From IMG/VR virus record IMGVR_UViG_3300008116_004797, positions 1 through 26,404 of that record: 26,404 bases of DNA. One strand, given 5' to 3'. The stretch comes from a virus. Each line of letters starts with the position of its first letter. Position 1 is the first letter of the stretch. The notes beneath the pieces were generated by a model, which worked only from the letters and a program-made list of their open reading frames with translations, had not been told where the DNA came from and searched no databases. Shown piece after piece: positions 1,856 to 15,710 of this stretch. Made by a program: the position numbers and the translations under genes.

Positions 1856-2266
1856 TTATTTTAGTTCAATTCTCTTGATAGCTTTTCCTTCTGCTACAGG
1901 AATAGTTAAGGTAAGAAGCCCTTTGTCTAAAGCAGCTTCTAACTTGTTTAGATCAAACTTAGAAGATATTTTCCAAGTCAGATCAAAACCAGACCTTTTG
2001 ATGCCTCTGTAGATAGCAGCTTCTTGATCAACTGGTTTTACCTTTTCGTATTTGATACGGAGTTGATCACCTTCAACTAGAATGTCAAGGTCTTTTTTGT
2101 CAAGGCCTACTGCGGCAATTTCAAATCGAATGCCGGCTTCTGTTTCGTAAATGTCTACTGGGTGTGTTACTTTCTGCGTAATCGCAGCGAAATGGGATTG
2201 TGACTCTAACAAGTCTCTCCAGAGCAGGTCAAATGGATCCAGCTCAAATGGTTTAAATATACTCAT
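1856..2266 (-). CDS. Hsp20 / alpha-crystallin small heat shock protein
   Basis: Small heat shock proteins hold unfolding proteins in an ATP-independent way. The alpha-crystallin domain occupies most of the protein, from the HPVDIYET strand to the end. It shows the typical GIRFEIAAVGLDKKDLDI segment and the diagnostic AALDKGLLTLTIP motif (family consensus A-x-x-x-x-G-x-L-x-I-x-x-P). The C-terminal RIEL may act as the I-x-I/V anchor. An upstream in-frame ATG at 2296 would add ten residues (MTVRQHKLKT), but the start at 2266 (MSIFKPFELDPFDLLW) gives the usual N-terminus, so I prefer it. The gene starts the hsp20-62aa-groES-groEL run. T4-type cyanophages also carry Hsp20. A 13-bp inverted repeat flanks the gene. 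Confidence 0.93.
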   Translation of the reverse strand: MSIFKPFELDPFDLLWRDLLESQSHFAAITQKVTHPVDIYETEAGIRFEIAAVGLDKKDLDILVEGDQLRIKYEKVKPVDQEAAIYRGIKRSGFDLTWKISSKFDLNKLEAALDKGLLTLTIPVAEGKAIKRIELK

Positions 2267-2325
2267 CGTTTTTAGTTTGTGTTGCCTTACGGTCAACGGT
2301 TAAAAAATTAATTGTTCAAAACTAA

Positions 2326-2873: not shown

Positions 2874-5177
2874 CTAATGTCCGTCGCGCAAATTGGAAGC
2901 TAGTGCTGGAGGTGCTTTTAAGTCAATACTTAGCTTGGTTGTGTTCTCCATTAAATCCTGGACGATCCTGGCCGCTTCTTCTGCTTTTGCATGATCTACT
3001 TCAATTACCAACTGGTCATGGATTTGAGCACATACCCAACCTCTGATGCCGATCTCTTGGAACTTACGGTTGATAGCCAAAGCTGCACGGTTTACAATTG
3101 AAGCAGCTAGACCTTGAATCTGGACGTTACAACTATTGTTGAGTCCATTGATGTAGTCACGGCTTAGGTTCTTGATGTTGTCTACACCATACTGCCTTTC
3201 CATCTGCTTCTTGATGTTCCAATCAAGTAGATCATCACCTATCTTGTCGTAGATAGCTTTTACTTTTGGTAAGTGGCGAATACGACCGACTTGTGTTTTA
3301 ACATAGCCTTGCTCTTTAGCCTGCTTCTTAGATCTTTCCATCCACTTCTTGAGTTCAGGGAACCCGTTCAAATAACCATCAACAAGCTTCTTTGCATCTT
3401 TTGTAGCAATTCCTAAGTTCATGCCTAGAGCGTAAGCACCCATGCCATAAGGTATACCTAGAGCATAAGCCTTCGCTTTATTTCTTAGTTTAGGCTCAAG
3501 CTTACGTAAGAAGTTAGGTGCTTTTTTATCTGGTGAATATTGACTAAGACCTTCTGTCTTGATTGCAATCGTAGAATAGAAGTCCCAGTTGTTACGAAAG
3601 ATGTCTTTAAGGCCTTCATCACCTGATACGTGAGCAAATGTATGTGGCTCAAGTGATTCATAGTCACAGTCAACAAATATGTTATGCTCTTCTGGAATAA
3701 AGAATGCTCGAATTAAGTTGTTGTACTCAATAACAATAGGTTCATCATCACCTTCTTCTTTAGGTCTAGGAAGCTGTTGAGCATCTGAACCATAACGGCC
3801 AGATACTGTGCCATGTTGTTTGTAATAAAAGTAGTATCGACCATCTTCTTGATTGTCAAGAAAGCGGTCCATATATGTTGATTTGATCTTAAGTAGTCGG
3901 TTATAGATACGTAAGTGTCTAGCCCATTCATATTTGCCTGCAATAGACTGCACAGTATCATCGTCAAATTGAGGCTTACCTGTTTTAGTCTTAGATAAAG
4001 GCTTAATGCCTAGAACACCGAAAGCAATCTCACCTAGTTGATCTTTTGATTGAATGTTAAAGAACTGCCCATCATTATCTTCTTTCCAAAGTCTAAGACT
4101 AATCTTAGTCACCACCTCTTTATCAAGCACAGCATCATCACCATGTAGCAAGAAGTGTTTAACCGGTGATTCAGGAAGCCTGATCAATGCTGAATTAGTT
4201 AAACTATACTTGCCTGTTTTAGCAGACGTTTCAAGGTCTAGATTGGCTTCACGACAAAGTTCTTGAGCAAAAGTACCTTTGTTATTGGCTGGATATGCAT
4301 CTAGTGCTTTCATAATAACCCAAGCACGAACAGATTGATTTTGTAACAACTCTTTTGTAACAAGATCAGAATATCTTTGTAGCTCTTCTGTGATTTTAGC
4401 ACGACTAGATTTTATAAGATCAAGATCGATCTTCATACCAACCATTTCCATAGGAATAGTTACCTCTTTATACACAGGCATAACTTCGTCTTCAAAGAAG
4501 AACTTCTCAAGGCCTTCTTCTCTAAGTGTATTCATGAAGTGGTGATATATCCTAAGAGTTAAGTCAGTATCTGCTGATGCGTATTCTGATAGCAACTCGA
4601 GGTCTGCTTTCCAGATTTCATAGTTTTCACGCGTGATTGATCCACCATTGTTTTTGATAGACTCTTTCATCTTCAACTGCTCTTCATTTGCAGCTTGTTC
4701 AACGTCTAGGCCAATTTCTTTTTGTATAGACTTAGCAATGTCTTTAAGACCAAACGATGAGCCTGCCATAAAGCCTGCGCCTTCTTCACGAACAGTGTGA
4801 ACTAATAGTAGTGTATCAACATGAAGACTAGACAACAAATCTACGTCGTAAAAGCACTTAACGAATCTACAGTCGAATGATGCGTTGTGCATCACTAACT
4901 TCTTACCAATTAATAGTGAAATAGTTTTCTTTGCAAGGTCATGACAAAGCTTATCATCGATATAAGCGTCTTGCAGCTCGTTGTCCTTGAATATCATAGT
5001 AGGCATGTAGTAGCCTTTGCCAACTTCTCCTGATACTGAGAAGCCTATGATCTTACCTTTACGAGGGTTTAGGCTGTTTGTTTCTGTGTCAAACGCAATT
5101 AGGTCGTGCTGCTTAATGTGTTCAACCATCTGTTTTAGTGTATCGATGGTTTGAACTGTAACATAACTTTTATTCAT
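2874..5177 (-). CDS. polA: Family A DNA polymerase with 3'-5' proofreading (main replicase)
   Basis: This 767-aa enzyme probably replicates the phage genome. The N-terminal DnaQ-like exonuclease is complete: Exo I FDTET (D30, E32), Exo II NASFD (D102) and Exo III Y199xxxD203. The palm/fingers follow: a GTVSGRYGS strand motif (R461), motif A with D505 and E510 (equivalents of Pol I D705 and E710), motif B R565-xxx-K569-xxx-L573-xxx-Y577-G, and motif C IHDQL (H720, D721). The residue at the Pol I 762 position is Leu (L573), and the motif C Glu883 is replaced by Gln (Q722). There is no 5'-3' exonuclease domain; that activity would come from the separate, broken gene at 10128-11059. No Shine-Dalgarno precedes the ATG. 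The assignment is firm. Confidence 0.96.
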   Translation of the reverse strand: MNKSYVTVQTIDTLKQMVEHIKQHDLIAFDTETNSLNPRKGKIIGFSVSGEVGKGYYMPTMIFKDNELQDAYIDDKLCHDLAKKTISLLIGKKLVMHNASFDCRFVKCFYDVDLLSSLHVDTLLLVHTVREEGAGFMAGSSFGLKDIAKSIQKEIGLDVEQAANEEQLKMKESIKNNGGSITRENYEIWKADLELLSEYASADTDLTLRIYHHFMNTLREEGLEKFFFEDEVMPVYKEVTIPMEMVGMKIDLDLIKSSRAKITEELQRYSDLVTKELLQNQSVRAWVIMKALDAYPANNKGTFAQELCREANLDLETSAKTGKYSLTNSALIRLPESPVKHFLLHGDDAVLDKEVVTKISLRLWKEDNDGQFFNIQSKDQLGEIAFGVLGIKPLSKTKTGKPQFDDDTVQSIAGKYEWARHLRIYNRLLKIKSTYMDRFLDNQEDGRYYFYYKQHGTVSGRYGSDAQQLPRPKEEGDDEPIVIEYNNLIRAFFIPEEHNIFVDCDYESLEPHTFAHVSGDEGLKDIFRNNWDFYSTIAIKTEGLSQYSPDKKAPNFLRKLEPKLRNKAKAYALGIPYGMGAYALGMNLGIATKDAKKLVDGYLNGFPELKKWMERSKKQAKEQGYVKTQVGRIRHLPKVKAIYDKIGDDLLDWNIKKQMERQYGVDNIKNLSRDYINGLNNSCNVQIQGLAASIVNRAALAINRKFQEIGIRGWVCAQIHDQLVIEVDHAKAEEAARIVQDLMENTTKLSIDLKAPPALASNLRDGH

Positions 5178-8739: not shown

Positions 8740-10125
8740 TTAGATATTCAGCTCAAAAAATTTCGAAGCCAGATATGCCTTCTCATCACGATCTAGACTG
8801 GAGCTATATCCTTTGTTAGATCCAGATATAGGAGTCGAGGTTTCTATGTTCAATTCGTCATCGTCTAGACTGTCAGGGTTGATCTCAATTGATCCGTTGT
8901 TGGTACTGATCTTGGCAGCATACGTCATACCATCCATACCATAACGGTTTTTCATAATATGAATACGGCCTGTACCATTTACCTTGTCTTGTCTCTTTCT
9001 AGATAATGACATAGCAAAGTCTGCGATCATCATCTTGTTGTAAGATCCTGCTGCCTTGTCACCTTCGATTACATCGTCTTTGGCACCTGCACGATTAACC
9101 TGTGATACAGTCCAAATTGGCACTTTCAACTCTCTTGCCATACCTTTGGTAGCAGTGTACACATCATCGATTGCATCTTTAGGATCAATTGACTTAGTCT
9201 TACTCTTCAATAGATCAACATAGTCTATAATAACCAGATCAGGAGGGTATCCTAGATCACGACACTTTTGGATATGTGACTCAATGGTATGTGTAGTAGC
9301 TTTTCCCATAGGAAACTCTTTAATGATCAACTTACCTTTTACCTTAGATACAGCTTCTTCAATAGCAGCTCTATGTTTATGCACAGCTTGTACATCGATT
9401 CCGGTAAACAATGAATCATATCTTTTACCTACATAGTACTCGGACAACTCTAGTGTGTAGTGACAAACAGTATAACCACGTTGTACTGCCATGGCACCCA
9501 TATTAACTAGCATCCATGATTTACCACCGCCAGGATTTCCGAATATGATACCTAGGTCACCTGAACCAAGCCCTCCCATTAGCAGTTCATTCACGTGTGG
9601 CCACGCTGTAGGAATAGCTGCTCGTTCTTCTTCACGATATCTGGTCTCGATGTCTTTCTCGTATTCGTGGCCTATTGATTTGTCTTGACCTGCTTTTAAC
9701 GCAGCGTCCATCATATACTTAATATCGTCGTACTGACCTTTCTCTAAAAGGCCTACTGAATTCAAGATAGCTTTCTTGATTTGTTGATTCTTACAGAAAC
9801 TACTGAACTCTTGCTCTACATACTCGCGATCTTCATTAGAAGCCTTCAACGCTTCTTTTAACTGCTCGACTACTGATACTTTCAATACCTCATTCTCAAT
9901 CTTTCTAACTTCAACTTGTAGTGCATCTACAGACTGCGTTGTATGATACTTGTAGTAGTAACGTAGTATCTCACCAACAATCCATTTATGTGCAGGATTG
10001 TCAAACATTTCGGTATCTAAGATATCGTTAATGTTTTGTAGAAACTCTTTGTGCTTAAGTAAGCTTGATAAAACCTTGATTTGAAAACCAATACCGTACT
10101 GCTGTAACTGATTTAAGTTCGACAT
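8740..10125 (-). CDS. dnaB: Replicative DNA helicase (DnaB / T4 gp41 family)
   Basis: A 461-aa protein with the RecA-type motor of hexameric replicative helicases. The N-terminal ~150 residues are helical and match the DnaB-like N domain. Walker A is GNPGGGKS (residues 196-203, K202); the H1a/H2-type strand VCHYTLELSE follows; Walker B is LVIIDYVDLLKS (D301); and a sensor-like segment WTVSQVNRAGAKDD follows. The C-terminal tail is acidic and Ser-rich. It unwinds DNA ahead of the polymerase and normally recruits a primase, which is not in this window. The gene starts 2 bases after the exonuclease stop, so it belongs to the uvsX-exonuclease-helicase unit. Confidence 0.95.
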   Translation of the reverse strand: MSNLNQLQQYGIGFQIKVLSSLLKHKEFLQNINDILDTEMFDNPAHKWIVGEILRYYYKYHTTQSVDALQVEVRKIENEVLKVSVVEQLKEALKASNEDREYVEQEFSSFCKNQQIKKAILNSVGLLEKGQYDDIKYMMDAALKAGQDKSIGHEYEKDIETRYREEERAAIPTAWPHVNELLMGGLGSGDLGIIFGNPGGGKSWMLVNMGAMAVQRGYTVCHYTLELSEYYVGKRYDSLFTGIDVQAVHKHRAAIEEAVSKVKGKLIIKEFPMGKATTHTIESHIQKCRDLGYPPDLVIIDYVDLLKSKTKSIDPKDAIDDVYTATKGMARELKVPIWTVSQVNRAGAKDDVIEGDKAAGSYNKMMIADFAMSLSRKRQDKVNGTGRIHIMKNRYGMDGMTYAAKISTNNGSIEINPDSLDDDELNIETSTPISGSNKGYSSSLDRDEKAYLASKFFELNI

Positions 10126-10127
10126 AA

Positions 10128-10754
10128 CTATTTATACTTTTGTAAATTGTGAAAATGATTGAATAACCATGTTTGTACATTTTGGATTGAGTTGCCTAAC
10201 TCATCCTCATGATACAATGTAAGAAATTTCTGTGAATCGTAACCTTTATTTGGATTGAGTAGAACACTTTTTACTTCCTCTTCTGCTTCTTCTGGAATGT
10301 TAGGCCTTTTTAGATCCATTAGCCTTTGATTGATCCTAAGTTGAAACTCAAAGTTCTTGATCGACTGTAGTATCTTCTTCTTGTCATCACACTTTGCTAG
10401 AACATCATCTAGAGTTACTAGATCGTCTTTAGCCAACTCAGGAAACTCTTTCAACATTGTCTTAGATCCAAGCCCTTTTACTCCAGGTATATTATCTCCA
10501 GAATCACCTAATAGTATCTTTTGCGTCAAGAAGTTATTAGGGCTAACACCATACTCTGAAAGTACTAGATCATGGTCATAGAACTTCTTCTTTGTAGGCG
10601 AGTAGATAGTAACTTTATCAGACACTAGTTGTAGATAGTCACGATCACTTGACATGATTGTAACTTCACCAGGAAGCCTTTGACTAATATAACCAATAAC
10701 ATCATCGGCTTCTATCTTGTCGATAGAGATAAGATCTACTGGTAGTGTCTTCAA
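10128..10754 (-). CDS. 5'-3' exonuclease (FEN / T4 RNase H type), C-terminal part of a split gene
   Basis: This reading frame carries the second half of a flap endonuclease: KIEADDVIGYI, IMSSDRDYLQLV (acidic metal-site cluster), and the helix-hairpin-helix region LGDSGDNIPGVKGLGSKT. The nominal start at 10754 is a TTG inside the conserved domain, so it is not a real start. The same frame is open back to 10883 and continues the protein upstream with RLYPDYKGNRG, the normal sequence before this region. The N-terminal half is in another frame at 11059. Together they should make one enzyme that removes RNA primers and flaps and supplies the 5' nuclease missing from the polymerase. As it stands the gene is disrupted. 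Confidence 0.85.
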   Translation of the reverse strand: MKTLPVDLISIDKIEADDVIGYISQRLPGEVTIMSSDRDYLQLVSDKVTIYSPTKKKFYDHDLVLSEYGVSPNNFLTQKILLGDSGDNIPGVKGLGSKTMLKEFPELAKDDLVTLDDVLAKCDDKKKILQSIKNFEFQLRINQRLMDLKRPNIPEEAEEEVKSVLLNPNKGYDSQKFLTLYHEDELGNSIQNVQTWLFNHFHNLQKYK

Positions 10755-10771
10755 ATAGAAGATTAGTCTTA

Positions 10772-11059
10772 CTAATTGTTCAGTAATAGAGTCAGACTCT
10801 TCTTGCTGTGATTCAAATGAATCCCAAGTAGTAACTCTACTAAGTCCACGGTTACCTTTATAATCTGGGTAAAGCCTAACGATCTAAGAAAACCGGTTAA
10901 ACCTCCAATATGTGATAGGTCTTTGTTAACCCAACCAATAGCAGCGAATGCTCTCAAGAAGGTGTTTAGTCCGTCTATTAATAGCACTCGGCTGTCTACT
11001 GAGTCTAGGGTTTTCTCCTCTTTTAAAGAGTCGAATATTTTTTTGTATTCTGGGTTCAT
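10772..11059 (-). pseudogene. 5'-3' exonuclease, N-terminal part, frameshifted after residue 63
   Basis: The first 63 residues are a normal FEN-type N-terminus: RVLLIDGLNTFLRAF with metal ligand D29, then HIGGLTGFLRSLGF. After that the frame reads a nonsense tail to a stop at 10772. The proper continuation (RLYPDYKGNRG) is in another frame starting at 10877. By comparison with T4 RNase H, about 25-30 residues containing a second Asp (VFD segment) are absent, so this is a deletion and not a single-base slip. The junction bases AGGCTTT are read as part of LGF on one side and RL on the other, as expected for loss between short direct repeats. The ATG overlaps the uvsX stop by one base (TAATG). 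Confidence 0.8.
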
Positions 11060-12129
11060 TAGTCTGCTGTGTCAAATATATCTGGTGATAAGGCTGTTTC
11101 TTCTTCAACTACATCGAAAGACGTTGATCCAAGGACTTTCATCCATTGATCAGAGTACTCTTTCTTATAGTTATCAAGCTCCTTCTTATCATCATTGATA
11201 AATCCGTGCACAGTCATAATGACTTTATTAACAGCTGTAACACCAGTTACGTGATTCTTATCACAGCTAATTCTAGTTCTCTTAGCGAACTCTACTTCTT
11301 TACCATTTTTAGTAGCCTTGATCTTGTTTGTACCTGCTCTTGCAATGTTACCAAATGTGATAACTAAAGATGAGTCAAAGTACATGGTGTTACCACCTTT
11401 GTTATTGAGTGTAGGCTGACCCATTGGTGAATCAGGCTTTGCTACCCACACCTTATTAACTGCTACTAATGTATTGGTATATGGTTGAGATGCTTTACGT
11501 GATAATACAATACGCTGGTTAATGAAGTTACCAAACTGTTGTGACATGGCGCCTGCATTCCATTCGTTATTGTTTGTGCTTTTCTCAATCGACATTCTAC
11601 AAGGAATTGATCCAACTGAATCCCAGAAGAAGCAGATGTTGTAAGGAAGTGTTCCTCTCTTTTGCTCATCTAAAATATCAGCGATAAACCCTGCTACGTC
11701 TTCAATACACTCAAGCCTTTCACGATCGATATATAAGAAGAAGCCTTTGTAGTCTACAACTTCTCCAGTTGCAGGGTCTGCTATCTCTTCAAATTGAAAG
11801 CCCATCTCACGAGCGTGATTCCAATCCCACTTCATCTCTGTGATAATAAACACAGGTAGTATTCCTAACTTTTGTGCACTAACAGCTGCTTCAAGTAGCG
11901 CAGTTGTTTTACCAGTATCAGAGTGTCCTCTTAAAAGTGTAATGTGACCAACAGGAATACCAGGAATTTGAAGTGTATCTTGAAAGGCTTGTGATAATGG
12001 TATCCAACTTTGTTCTTTGAAAACAACACCTGCAGATAAGTTCTTGCCTTTCTTAAACTTCTCTAGATCAGCTGTTCCTTTGATTGCACTAGATATAGTG
12101 CTAGTAAGCGATTCTTTTGCTTTTGCCAT
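11059..12129 (-). CDS. uvsX: UvsX / RecA-type recombinase
   Basis: A 356-aa RecA-fold ATPase that forms filaments on ssDNA for recombination-dependent replication and repair. Walker A is GHSDTGKT (residues 68-75, K74). It is followed by the strand VFIITE with the catalytic Glu region, Walker B CFFWDSVGSIP, and an L1/L2-like region ending with NNKGGNTMYFDSSLVITF, as in the T4 UvsX/RecA family. The C-terminal tail is acidic (EEETALSPDIFDTAD), as is common for recombinase tails that regulate DNA binding. It lies directly downstream of the ssDNA-binding protein terminator and overlaps the exonuclease start by one base. UvsX works with gp32-type protein, which is the neighbouring gene. Confidence 0.94.
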   Translation of the reverse strand: MAKAKESLTSTISSAIKGTADLEKFKKGKNLSAGVVFKEQSWIPLSQAFQDTLQIPGIPVGHITLLRGHSDTGKTTALLEAAVSAQKLGILPVFIITEMKWDWNHAREMGFQFEEIADPATGEVVDYKGFFLYIDRERLECIEDVAGFIADILDEQKRGTLPYNICFFWDSVGSIPCRMSIEKSTNNNEWNAGAMSQQFGNFINQRIVLSRKASQPYTNTLVAVNKVWVAKPDSPMGQPTLNNKGGNTMYFDSSLVITFGNIARAGTNKIKATKNGKEVEFAKRTRISCDKNHVTGVTAVNKVIMTVHGFINDDKKELDNYKKEYSDQWMKVLGSTSFDVVEEETALSPDIFDTAD

Positions 12130-12180: not shown

Positions 12181-12987
12181 TTAAATATCGAACAAATCAT
12201 CAATTGCCGAATCTACACTTGGCTTAGTTGTACTAAGAGTGTACTGACTGTTTGCTGGTTTTTCCCATGGCAAATCAGATGCTGGCTTAGATTCTACAGT
12301 GTCAGCAGATTCTTTCAACTCTTCTTCAGGGTTCAAATGCTTAAGTAAAGCGTCTTTCATATCTTCATAGCTATATCTTTTGAATTGAGCTAGAGGATCT
12401 GGTTGGTTTTCAAGCCATAGTTTTACTTTGTTAGCATCTTCTGATAAAGGAGTTGCTTTTGTTCTTACACGCACAGTCGATGTGTTGTACATCAAGCCTG
12501 TTGTTTCTTTACCAGCTGTTTCAACTGTAATGTCACGGCCAGTAATAGGATCTGTGTAATCTCCTACATCCTCATCTTCAGCGATAGAAAGTAAGTCCAT
12601 GTAGACTTGCTTACCAAACTCCCAAAGACGAACTCCTTTGTCTTCTTCACCACGTACAATTACAGGTGCAAAGACACGCATTTTTGGTTCAAGCTTCTTA
12701 GCTAATTGCCAATTGTCTTTTTCGCTAGACTTACGAAGTCCTTGTGCAAACTCAACAATAGGGTCTTTTTCACCAAAGTTAGTTAATGCCATCATAGAAC
12801 GGTTGTTGATGCCATAGTGCATGTAAACCTCTTTGAATGGATTTTGTTTGTTAAACACAGAAGGTACGATACGCACCGAATGTTTACCCACGGCTGGCCT
12901 CCAAATGGTTTGGCTCAGATCTTTCTTTTGTCCTCCACGTGGATTCTGTAGAGCCGACAATCTTGATTTGATGACTGATATGTCCAT
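12181..12987 (-). CDS. ssDNA-binding protein (T4 gp32 type)
   Basis: A 268-aa protein with the gp32 layout: a basic N-terminus (residues 1-30, ISVIKSRLSALQNPRGGQKK), a core OB-fold region with HSVRIVPSVFNKQNPFKEVYMHYGI and EKDPIVEFAQGL, and a linker ending in the acidic tail VDSAIDDLFDI that binds partner proteins. In T4 gp32 the core also holds a zinc site with cysteines; I see no cysteines here, so the zinc site is absent. The gene is bounded by terminators on both sides and has its own 66-base leader with inverted repeats, which suits an abundant, self-regulated protein. T4 gp32 represses its own translation through leader RNA structure; the same here is an inference. Confidence 0.88.
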   Translation of the reverse strand: MDISVIKSRLSALQNPRGGQKKDLSQTIWRPAVGKHSVRIVPSVFNKQNPFKEVYMHYGINNRSMMALTNFGEKDPIVEFAQGLRKSSEKDNWQLAKKLEPKMRVFAPVIVRGEEDKGVRLWEFGKQVYMDLLSIAEDEDVGDYTDPITGRDITVETAGKETTGLMYNTSTVRVRTKATPLSEDANKVKLWLENQPDPLAQFKRYSYEDMKDALLKHLNPEEELKESADTVESKPASDLPWEKPANSQYTLSTTKPSVDSAIDDLFDI

Positions 12988-13388: not shown

Positions 13389-13397
13389 AATAAATAT
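13389..13397 (-). promoter_or_regulatory. ATATTTATW box upstream of 96-aa gene
   Basis: Coding-strand ATATTTATT, 3 bases before the ATG at 13385 and touching the stop codon of the preceding gene. Confidence 0.45.
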
Positions 13398-13825
13398 TAG
13401 ACTGCAACGATCTTATGGATAGTAGTGTTTAACTTTTTTAGGTCGTCACCTTGAGTCAACAAGATAGAATTCTTATAGTCGTTCCAGTTGATCATGAACG
13501 ATGTATCTAGTACGCCATTATTTAGCTTCTTGATCAAAGTGTTCAAGGCGTTAATGGTATAAAGAGTGTTTGACTCTTTCTTTCTATGGAGTAGGATAGT
13601 ATTAGGAAGGATCTTAGTCTGGCCACCTTGAAGTTCAATATTGTAGGTGCACATGTATTCCTCAGACTCTGGAGAAGCCAAAACGAATATCTTTTTATAT
13701 AAAATAGTGTACTCTCTGTTTATCTCCCTAAGGGTATCGTCCAAACCATCTTTGGAAGAGAAAGTACAAAACAACTTGTTCATAAGCGATTCTGCTGTAA
13801 TTTCAATTATTTTGTGTTCTTGCAT
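13397..13825 (-). CDS. Hypothetical protein, 142 aa
   Basis: I cannot assign a function. The sequence looks like a compact alpha/beta protein: EHKIIEITAESLMNKLFCTF, a central KIFVLASPESEEYMCTYNIEL strand pair, TILLHRKKESNTLYTINALN, and the end WNDYKNSILLTQGDDLKKLN. No signal peptide, membrane segment or catalytic motif is visible. It lies directly downstream of the second polymerase and upstream of the 96-aa gene, in one run with them that ends at the 13054 terminator, so it may be a polymerase or ssDNA-binding accessory factor. It has its own box 17 bases upstream. Confidence 0.7.
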   Translation of the reverse strand: MQEHKIIEITAESLMNKLFCTFSSKDGLDDTLREINREYTILYKKIFVLASPESEEYMCTYNIELQGGQTKILPNTILLHRKKESNTLYTINALNTLIKKLNNGVLDTSFMINWNDYKNSILLTQGDDLKKLNTTIHKIVAV

Positions 13826-13862: not shown

Positions 13863-15158
13863 CTAGAAAGCATAGTTGGTTCCGTATTTGTGTTTTACAA
13901 TCATGTCGTTCTTTTCTAACACTTCTTTTATCTTTTTTAGTAGTGTTTTTCCATCTTGCTGGCTGAAGTCAAACAAGAAAGAATCATAGGTGATCAAGAT
14001 TAACTTACTCTTCTTCTTACTTAGAAGTTTGTTTATCTCCAAGATCTTGTCAATGTTCTCTTTGGTCTCTAGATTCTGGACAATGTAGTTGAACAATTTT
14101 AGCTTGTTCATGCCAGGCAGCTTCTTCAAGATACGGCCAGTAGGTAGGACAGCTGCTTTGTGAGCATTGTACTTCTTCCATTCTTGATCAATAAACTCAC
14201 TCAGATGTTTAAAGAAGTCAATATGTTTGTATTGGGCTTCAATACCACCATACAGTTGCCTAAACGTAATGGTCTTTGATTCTTTATACTGCTCATCAGT
14301 TAGCTCGTCCTGGTTGAAATATGCGCGTCCTAGATACACGTGCATAGATTCTTTTGGAGGCTCAAAGCCAATCAACCTAGATATTAGTCTTAGGTGATAC
14401 GCATCGAAGTCAAACTCTACTAGAAAGTCATTCTTTGGAACAAAGCACTGTCTAAAGTCTTGGTCTTTAGGAATGGCTAGAAAGTTAATCCCATTGAATG
14501 AGTTAGTAGGCCTAGCTGTCAAATTGTACAGGTTATAGTAAGAATAGATAGTATCACCTAACAAACTATATTCTGGGTGTTGGAATTGGAACTTCTTATT
14601 AAAGCAGCTTAGATCAACTTTGATACCTGACTCTTCTACACCTTTATAAGCCTCAGTCAGTCTTTCTTGAAGTTCAATGTCCATCTCAAGATGGAAGTAG
14701 TCTCTAACCAACTTATACAAGCACTCACACTTTTCATAGTGTTTAGCGATTGGTATGATCTCATTTAGTGTAGGTAGCACAGGGTACTTTATATAAAAGT
14801 CTTTATGTACCACTGTGTCACAATTAAAAGAACTGTACTCGTTGTTTTTATCTAGACAGATAAACTGTACATCGATTGAGTTAGGTAGATCTAAGAAGTA
14901 CGAGTGAAACTTCTTGTCAAGTAGATAGATCTTAGTGTGCTTCTTTAGAAAGTCTTCTACTAACTTTAACTCTAGAGAAAAGCCTTCTGAGTGATTAATA
15001 ACAAACACATAGCCTTTCTTACCATTATGATAATATACTAAACTGGCTCTTGAAAGTTTAGGGTGATAATAATCGTTAGAAGTGACTATCTGTATAAACG
15101 CCTCGTCTGAAAGTTCTAGACGCTGTAATTGTTCTTTATCTTCAATGATGAAATACAT
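13863..15158 (-). CDS. Second, divergent family A DNA polymerase without proofreading residues
   Basis: This 431-aa protein keeps the palm and fingers motifs of family A polymerases in order. They are the TARPTNSFN strand (R216, in place of TGRLSS), motif A VEFDFDAYHLR (D250 = Pol I D705), motif B K295-TIT-F299-RQL-Y303-G304 (= K758, F762, Y766), an NYIVQ segment (N357, Q361 = N845, Q849), and motif C TYDSF (D392 = D882). Both catalytic Asp are present, so catalysis is possible. Oddities: His255 stands where Glu710 is expected, Ser393 replaces Glu883, and the motif B Arg754 is not evident. The first ~180 residues look like a decayed exonuclease domain without the acidic residues. It is much shorter than a Klenow fragment. 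It lies between virion genes and the ssDNA-binding protein unit. Confidence 0.85.
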   Translation of the reverse strand: MYFIIEDKEQLQRLELSDEAFIQIVTSNDYYHPKLSRASLVYYHNGKKGYVFVINHSEGFSLELKLVEDFLKKHTKIYLLDKKFHSYFLDLPNSIDVQFICLDKNNEYSSFNCDTVVHKDFYIKYPVLPTLNEIIPIAKHYEKCECLYKLVRDYFHLEMDIELQERLTEAYKGVEESGIKVDLSCFNKKFQFQHPEYSLLGDTIYSYYNLYNLTARPTNSFNGINFLAIPKDQDFRQCFVPKNDFLVEFDFDAYHLRLISRLIGFEPPKESMHVYLGRAYFNQDELTDEQYKESKTITFRQLYGGIEAQYKHIDFFKHLSEFIDQEWKKYNAHKAAVLPTGRILKKLPGMNKLKLFNYIVQNLETKENIDKILEINKLLSKKKSKLILITYDSFLFDFSQQDGKTLLKKIKEVLEKNDMIVKHKYGTNYAF

Positions 15159-15257: not shown

Positions 15258-15710
15258 TCAAGTGTCGTAGTCAGCAGTACCATTCACAATTGAGTTATAC
15301 TCGTCTTGAGATATTTCTGTAACGAAGCCTCGCTCGTTTTCTTTTTTAGTAAAGTAACGTATGATGTAACCTTTCTTATAATCTTGATCTGTTGGTTGAG
15401 GATAGTAAGAATTAGGTTGGCCTGGTATTCTAGTATTTGTTATTGTAGAAGCTGCGACTCCTGTTTTATTAGCAAGATCTCTTCTAGATCTTGTAGACAA
15501 ATTAGTATTACTTAATCCAGGAGCAGACTGATAAGATGGGATCCTTTGTAAAGGTTCGCTAGGTCCTACTTCTGGGCTAGATCCTGTAAACGCTCTACCA
15601 TCATATGTTTCGTAGTACCTACCAGAATAAGGTAATCCATTCAGCAAAAATTCTGTTCCTGCTGTGTTTAAATTTGGTTTTACTGCAAATGATGGATAAT
15701 ATCTTAACAT
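15258..15710 (-). CDS. Virion-type protein, 150 aa, probable frameshift at C-terminus
   Basis: This protein follows the hub gene directly and is rich in Tyr, Pro, Ser, Thr and Asn, as in small structural proteins (MLRYYPSFAVKPNLNTAGTE). It ends with the frame NGTADYDT and a TGA at 15258. The next frame, however, is open from here to 15212 and reads TLDFIGGDYAKFARPTM, which looks like a genuine tail of a virion protein. Two extra bases (AC) at an ACAC run near 15263-15266 would join the two parts as YDTLDFIGG. The true product may therefore be about 166 aa. The function is unknown; a baseplate or tail-tip role is likely from position. Confidence 0.7.
   Translation of the reverse strand: MLRYYPSFAVKPNLNTAGTEFLLNGLPYSGRYYETYDGRAFTGSSPEVGPSEPLQRIPSYQSAPGLSNTNLSTRSRRDLANKTGVAASTITNTRIPGQPNSYYPQPTDQDYKKGYIIRYFTKKENERGFVTEISQDEYNSIVNGTADYDT

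Follow-up and report, generated by a model that had tools for sequence, protein, structure and literature searches.

Genes and motifs at the locus

The window (the whole stretch of DNA analysed, 26,404 bases, which are all that viral record IMGVR_UViG_3300008116_004797 comprises) carries a reading frame for a 431-aa protein running from 15158 to 13863 on the minus strand; stops abound in the plus-strand frame. An earlier reading made from the letters alone (hereafter the sequence-only reading) had described the product as a minimal polymerase, and the residues it named were all found in place (R216-P-T-N219, D250, H255, K295, F299, Y303, N357, Q361 and Y391-D392-S393). The gene, its motifs and the genes relevant to its interpretation are as follows.

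13863..15158, minus strand: divPolA1, 431-aa divergent family A DNA polymerase with truncated thumb and inactive exonuclease domain (homology, AF2 model, profile alignment)
14502..14513, minus strand: R216-P-T-N219 strand, R216 corresponding to Klenow R668 (R and P in 100/100 representatives; profile alignment)
14388..14411, minus strand: motif A, D250-FDAYH255LR, with D705 kept, D252 at the S707 position and His255 at the Glu710 steric-gate position (D250 and H255 in 314/314, D252 in 308/314)
14247..14276, minus strand: motif B, K295-TITFRQLYG304, with the K758, F762 and Y766 equivalents (K295 and Y303 in 314/314, F299 in 310/314)
13968..13988, minus strand: motif C, Y391-D392-S393-FLF-D397, with D882 kept, H881 replaced by Tyr and E883 by Ser/Ala (Y391 and D392 in 314/314)
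13397..13825, minus strand: hyp142, 142-aa constant partner with motif HRKKxTNTLYTINALN, of no known family (275/287 loci; co-occurrence)
12181..12987, minus strand: gp32-type single-strand DNA-binding protein, SSB (Pfam gp32, 7.7e-11; conserved order)
11059..12129, minus strand: UvsX-type recombinase (PHROG 97, 2e-16; conserved order)
10128..11059, minus strand: 5'-3' exonuclease of FEN type, in two frames in this record (Pfam 5_3_exonuc_N, 1.2e-13)
8740..10125, minus strand: DnaB-type replicative helicase (PHROG 19, 1.3e-74; Pfam DnaB_C)
2874..5177, minus strand: main family A DNA polymerase, outside the module, with intact 3'-5' exonuclease motifs and Glu kept at 710 (Pfam DNA_pol_A, 2.2e-66; exonuclease, 7e-14)

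The frame split in the FEN-type gene corresponds to a 79-nt deletion relative to the close relatives L008 and L010, and is either a real deletion or an assembly collapse.

The window protein belongs to the divPolA1 family

The window protein matched gp001 of the Flavobacterium phage immuto over 99% of the query (34.8% identity, E 9e-74, tblastn). Immuto is one of the 14 phages in which Yutin et al. 2024 (Virol J 21:200) named the family divPolA1, characterized by a truncated thumb, replaced exonuclease acids and replication genes downstream, with its function left open (PMC11348598). In the literature searched, the name divPolA1 occurred only in that article (PMC11348598) and its preprint. Like immuto gp001, the window protein combines a truncated thumb and a dead exonuclease domain, its catalytic acids replaced, with a catalytic palm, and it is likewise encoded besides a regular polymerase and upstream of replication genes. 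Given the full-length match, we assign it by homology to divPolA1; no defining difference from the published members was found, and it represents a diverged sublineage sharing about 35% identity with immuto. The earlier remark that no characterized enzyme shows this combination of residues is thus valid for biochemistry, but the family itself had been described in 2024 (PMC11348598). New here are a signature that stays invariant in a much larger set, the separate main polymerase in every large relative surveyed, the DnaG-type primase in most of these, and hyp142 as a near-constant companion.

A second family named in the same study, divPolA2 (AUR84708 of Vibrio phage 1.063.O), resembles divPolA1: it too is an additional family A enzyme that lacks an exonuclease and a normal thumb and is encoded alongside a regular polymerase (PMC11348598). 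It differs in keeping the motif A Glu (DFKAFE) and in having FDE as motif C, and its gene neighbourhood is variable (PMC11348598). A relationship between the two families was considered and rejected, as no profile similarity was detected.

Family A fold of divPolA1

Taken alone, the window protein matched Pfam DNA_pol_A (PF00476) with 1.7e-4 and 21.1 bits, under the cut-off of 34.3. The same Pfam family was matched by 58 of 92 divPolA1 relatives (best 7e-13), and a profile of these 92 divergent relatives retrieved Klenow at about 1e-6, each of motifs A, B and C aligning with its counterpart. An AF2 model built from the 92 relatives (pLDDT 95.9, pTM 0.91) was compared by Foldseek with 350,542 PDB chains; its top match was the Klenow structure 1kfd (TM 0.73, E 6e-19). 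Because the Pfam matches of the relatives, the profile and the model agree, we conclude that the fold is a real family A fold and not a chance resemblance, in line with the sequence-only reading, which had proposed this fold and a structural comparison with Klenow.

Of the hallmarks of family A, the palm and fingers fold with motifs A, B and C is present. Glu at 710 and an acidic residue at 883 are absent, with His in 314/314 and Ser or Ala in 314/314 relatives, respectively; we did not take this to exclude the protein from family A because the polymerase of Thermus phage Tt72, which also has no acid at 883, is active. Neither a Toprim nor an archaeo-eukaryotic primase fold was found, the fold and profile matches of divPolA1 being family A polymerases, and no relation to T7-type single-subunit RNA polymerases emerged, all 31 PDB profile matches being DNA polymerases.

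The family-profile alignment equates R216 with Klenow R668, D250 with D705, H255 with E710, K295 with K758, F299 with F762, Y303 with Y766, N357 with N845, Q361 with Q849, and Y391/D392/S393 with H881/D882/E883. Alignment to Klenow further revealed three features beyond those of the sequence-only reading, namely Y291 at the R754 position, D252 at the S707 position and the absence of the thumb. E175 (Klenow E541) and R216 lie 41 aa apart (range 23-43 across the family) versus 127 aa in Klenow, and Y303 and Q361 58 aa apart versus 83. By this alignment, the thumb is shorter by about 86 aa and the fingers by about 25 aa. The N-terminal domain retains the exonuclease-like series of strands and helices in the AF2 model; no conserved acidic residue precedes D96, residues 1-95 containing no acidic column conserved at 70% or more in 100 representatives, which agrees with the proposed loss of the exonuclease acids. 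In sum, divPolA1 and E. coli Klenow share the fold, motifs A, B and C, the palm and two catalytic Asp, and differ in the thumb and fingers deletions, in E710 to His, E883 to Ser/Ala, H881 to Tyr and R754 to Tyr, and in the missing exonuclease residues.

An altered active site is fixed across the family

Relatives were gathered by four IMG/VR scans with divPolA1 queries and one scan of GTDB genomes. They number at least several hundred, and the family is larger than the set listed; the eight GTDB relatives listed are all on MAG contigs. Residues were counted in 314 near-full-length sequences and in 100 representatives of less than 80% identity. R216, D250, H255, K295, Y303, Q361, Y391 and D392 were invariant in both sets. 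Tyr was found at Y291 in 312/314, Asp at D252 in 308/314 and Phe at F299 in 310/314, while the S393 position held Ser in 191, Ala in 123 and Glu in none. In the two broad scans of viral sequences, the query patterns included stretches of motifs A and C without H255, so those scans did not build in its invariance; D250 and D392, each kept in 314/314, lay inside one pattern each, and one pattern sufficed for a sequence to be included.

For pairs with estimable dS, dN/dS was about 0.03-0.10. The family is thus under purifying selection; the enzyme is maintained and its altered active site is fixed. A decayed gene, which random loss of D250 or D392 among homologues would have indicated, is ruled out by residue invariance and purifying selection. 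The His at the E710 position, noted before in the window protein, is universal among the 314 relatives; of the YDS motif, Tyr and Asp are fixed and the third position alternates between Ser and Ala.

Significance had also been attached to Ser at the E883 position. This was overstated: YDS is unremarkable, since the active Tt72 polymerase has Ser (PMC9324360) and the window's own main polymerase Gln at this position. From the alignments, the unusual features of divPolA1 are rather the invariant His and the near-invariant Tyr291. The Tt72 enzyme is, like divPolA1, a phage family A polymerase, but it keeps E710 (as E389), a full thumb and strong proofreading. In Tt72, both Asp are essential (4% activity left when mutated), whereas an Ala mutant of the E710 equivalent retained 35% activity and Ser-to-Ala at the 883 position 76% (PMC9324360). 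As these mutants stay partly active, His and Ser/Ala at the two positions are compatible with activity. With the equivalents of R668, D705, K758, Y766, Q849 and D882 unchanged in all 314 sequences and the low dN/dS, we argue that divPolA1 is very probably a catalytically competent nucleotidyl transferase. We expect His255 to keep the hydrogen bond to Tyr303, and it may continue to crowd the 2' position of the sugar; E710 being the ribonucleotide gate of family A (PMC9324360), its substitution possibly alters sugar discrimination.

hyp142 is a near-constant partner in a conserved replication cluster

The gene order divPolA1, hyp142, SSB, UvsX, FEN, DnaB was found in 72 loci, and most other loci showed shorter stretches or minor variants of it. 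hyp142 lay on the same strand and downstream of divPolA1 in 275 of the 287 loci with room for it; in some lineages it is 1-4 kb off, with another conserved gene in between. In immuto, hyp142 corresponds to gp002. About 100 loci from other lineages have a gene for a long conserved protein between the two (e.g. L238, 3850-5958). Among 50,697 phage records, relatives of hyp142 and of divPolA1 were found in the identical six records. Conversely, divPolA1 was present in 76 of 78 loci found via hyp142 alone, the remaining two having hyp142 at a contig edge; since the 78 loci were those closest to the window's hyp142, this converse test carries most weight near that sequence. Phages with a related UvsX but without divPolA1 were sought for a synteny comparison, and UvsX relatives at E <1e-10 came only from immuto phages.

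Mean column identity of hyp142 was 44% in 70 representatives, with N62, H80, K82, N86, Y89, N92, N95 and W114 invariant and HRKKxTNTLYTINALN, NNGVLD and WxxYxN making up an invariant polar motif. Its predicted model (pLDDT 88.8) and sequence gave no usable match in Pfam, PHROG, PDB sequences or PDB folds; the sole significant match in a viral fold library was an uncharacterized phage protein. Insignificant matches to Rep, parvovirus NS1 and SV40 origin-binding folds recurred (E about 0.1 or worse).

Large relatives carry a separate main polymerase

The sequence-only reading had placed a full proofreading polymerase at 2874-5177. Pfam matches and motifs bear this out, on the minus strand, and with it the status of divPolA1 as a second polymerase. 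In this main enzyme and in its relatives, F762 is replaced by Leu and E883 by Gln (IHDQ), the exonuclease motifs being intact.

The genome-level survey covered 13 large relatives of 129-484 kb, and all 13 encode a separate DNA polymerase: seven PolA (immuto, G001, G002, G006, G007, G009, G010), five PolB (Mel-JY01, G008, G011, G012, G013), and one both PolB and PolC (LR756508). divPolA1 therefore stays while the main enzyme changes. A DnaG-type primase homologue was found in 11 of the 13, immuto included, and not in G002 (136 kb) and G011 (132 kb), genomes not known to be complete. The absent thumb, together with a cluster devoid of primase genes, had suggested a primase role for divPolA1, which was dropped on account of the DnaG-type primase in immuto and the other large relatives. 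Priming, one of the roles raised by the sequence-only reading, is hence unlikely, and nothing in this analysis lent weight to another, a terminal-protein-like function.

Possible roles of divPolA1

Tentatively, we favour the view that divPolA1 is an active, distributive, exonuclease-free family A polymerase that may make short DNA patches within the phage replication and recombination complex, with hyp142 as accessory factor. Activity, low processivity, hyp142 binding and the gap-filling role are all inferred. Since the thumb that clamps the primer-template duplex is absent, divPolA1 should hold DNA weakly and depend on partners, of which the co-conserved hyp142 would be the likeliest, its binding being putative. 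Acting on SSB-covered DNA, the enzyme would fill gaps after primer removal by the 5' nuclease and/or briefly extend recombination intermediates, leaving long synthesis to the separate main polymerase. Two features count against this reading: replacement of the R754 equivalent by Tyr removes one triphosphate contact, and the large deletions could make the activity weak or unusual. Nor can gap filling be told apart from recombination, lesion bypass or some other function by the gene neighbourhood.

A translesion or modified-base polymerase, whose open, thumbless, exonuclease-free site would bypass damaged or modified bases that stall the main polymerase, seems unlikely. Loss of the exonuclease, the shortened thumb and fingers, a main polymerase that proofreads, and the 7-deazaguanine DNA modification genes of immuto, including DpdA, all fit such an enzyme, but divPolA1 heads the core replication genes in nearly every relative, which points to constitutive use more than to a damage response.

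It is distinctly improbable that divPolA1 was or still is the cluster's own replicative polymerase, serving as lagging-strand or initiation enzyme while a swapped polymerase of family A, B or C does the rest. Its place in the conserved replication cluster, with the regular polymerase elsewhere among mixed genes (PMC11348598) and of different family in different carriers, would suit this role; an enzyme without exonuclease and with hardly any thumb, accompanied by another polymerase in every large relative, does not. We give similarly little credence to the idea that divPolA1 and hyp142 make up a novel two-subunit polymerase, hyp142 replacing the thumb or supplying an initiator-like DNA-binding fold, so that the pair would start or extend DNA at special sites; the clustered invariant polar residues of hyp142 and its insignificant but recurrent origin-binding fold matches would fit such a pair.

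Very improbable is a primer-making or ribonucleotide-using enzyme, akin to primases or RNA polymerases, with sugar selection relaxed by His255. Primase-polymerases can be without a thumb, which counts for it, as does the fixed His at the gate; against it stand the DnaG-type primase in 11/13 large relatives (G002 and G011, where none was found, may be incomplete), the size of His, which is not smaller than Glu, the retained F762 and Y766 equivalents, and profile matches to DNA polymerases only. A non-catalytic scaffold or regulator on a polymerase fold would explain why the E710, E883, H881 and R754 equivalents are all replaced and the thumb and exonuclease gone, but is just as hard to credit with both metal-binding Asp and the K758, Y766, R668 and Q849 equivalents unchanged in 314/314.

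Because every relative has His in place of the steric-gate Glu, the family offers a natural test of that residue's role, and a nearly thumbless family A enzyme tests what a minimal polymerase needs. The constant partner hyp142 turns divPolA1 into a defined, assayable two-gene module, whose persistence while the main polymerase swaps among families A, B and C bears on the tolerance of phage replication machines to polymerase swapping.

Flanking genes

Directly upstream of divPolA1, the window encodes a 150-aa protein (15258-15710, minus strand) that is upstream in 249 of the 258 loci with room and possibly marks the end of a tail/baseplate module. GroEL, GroES and a small heat-shock-like protein are encoded near the main polymerase (1-1634 and 1856-2296, minus strand), and GroEL/GroES also lie next to the main polymerase in immuto.
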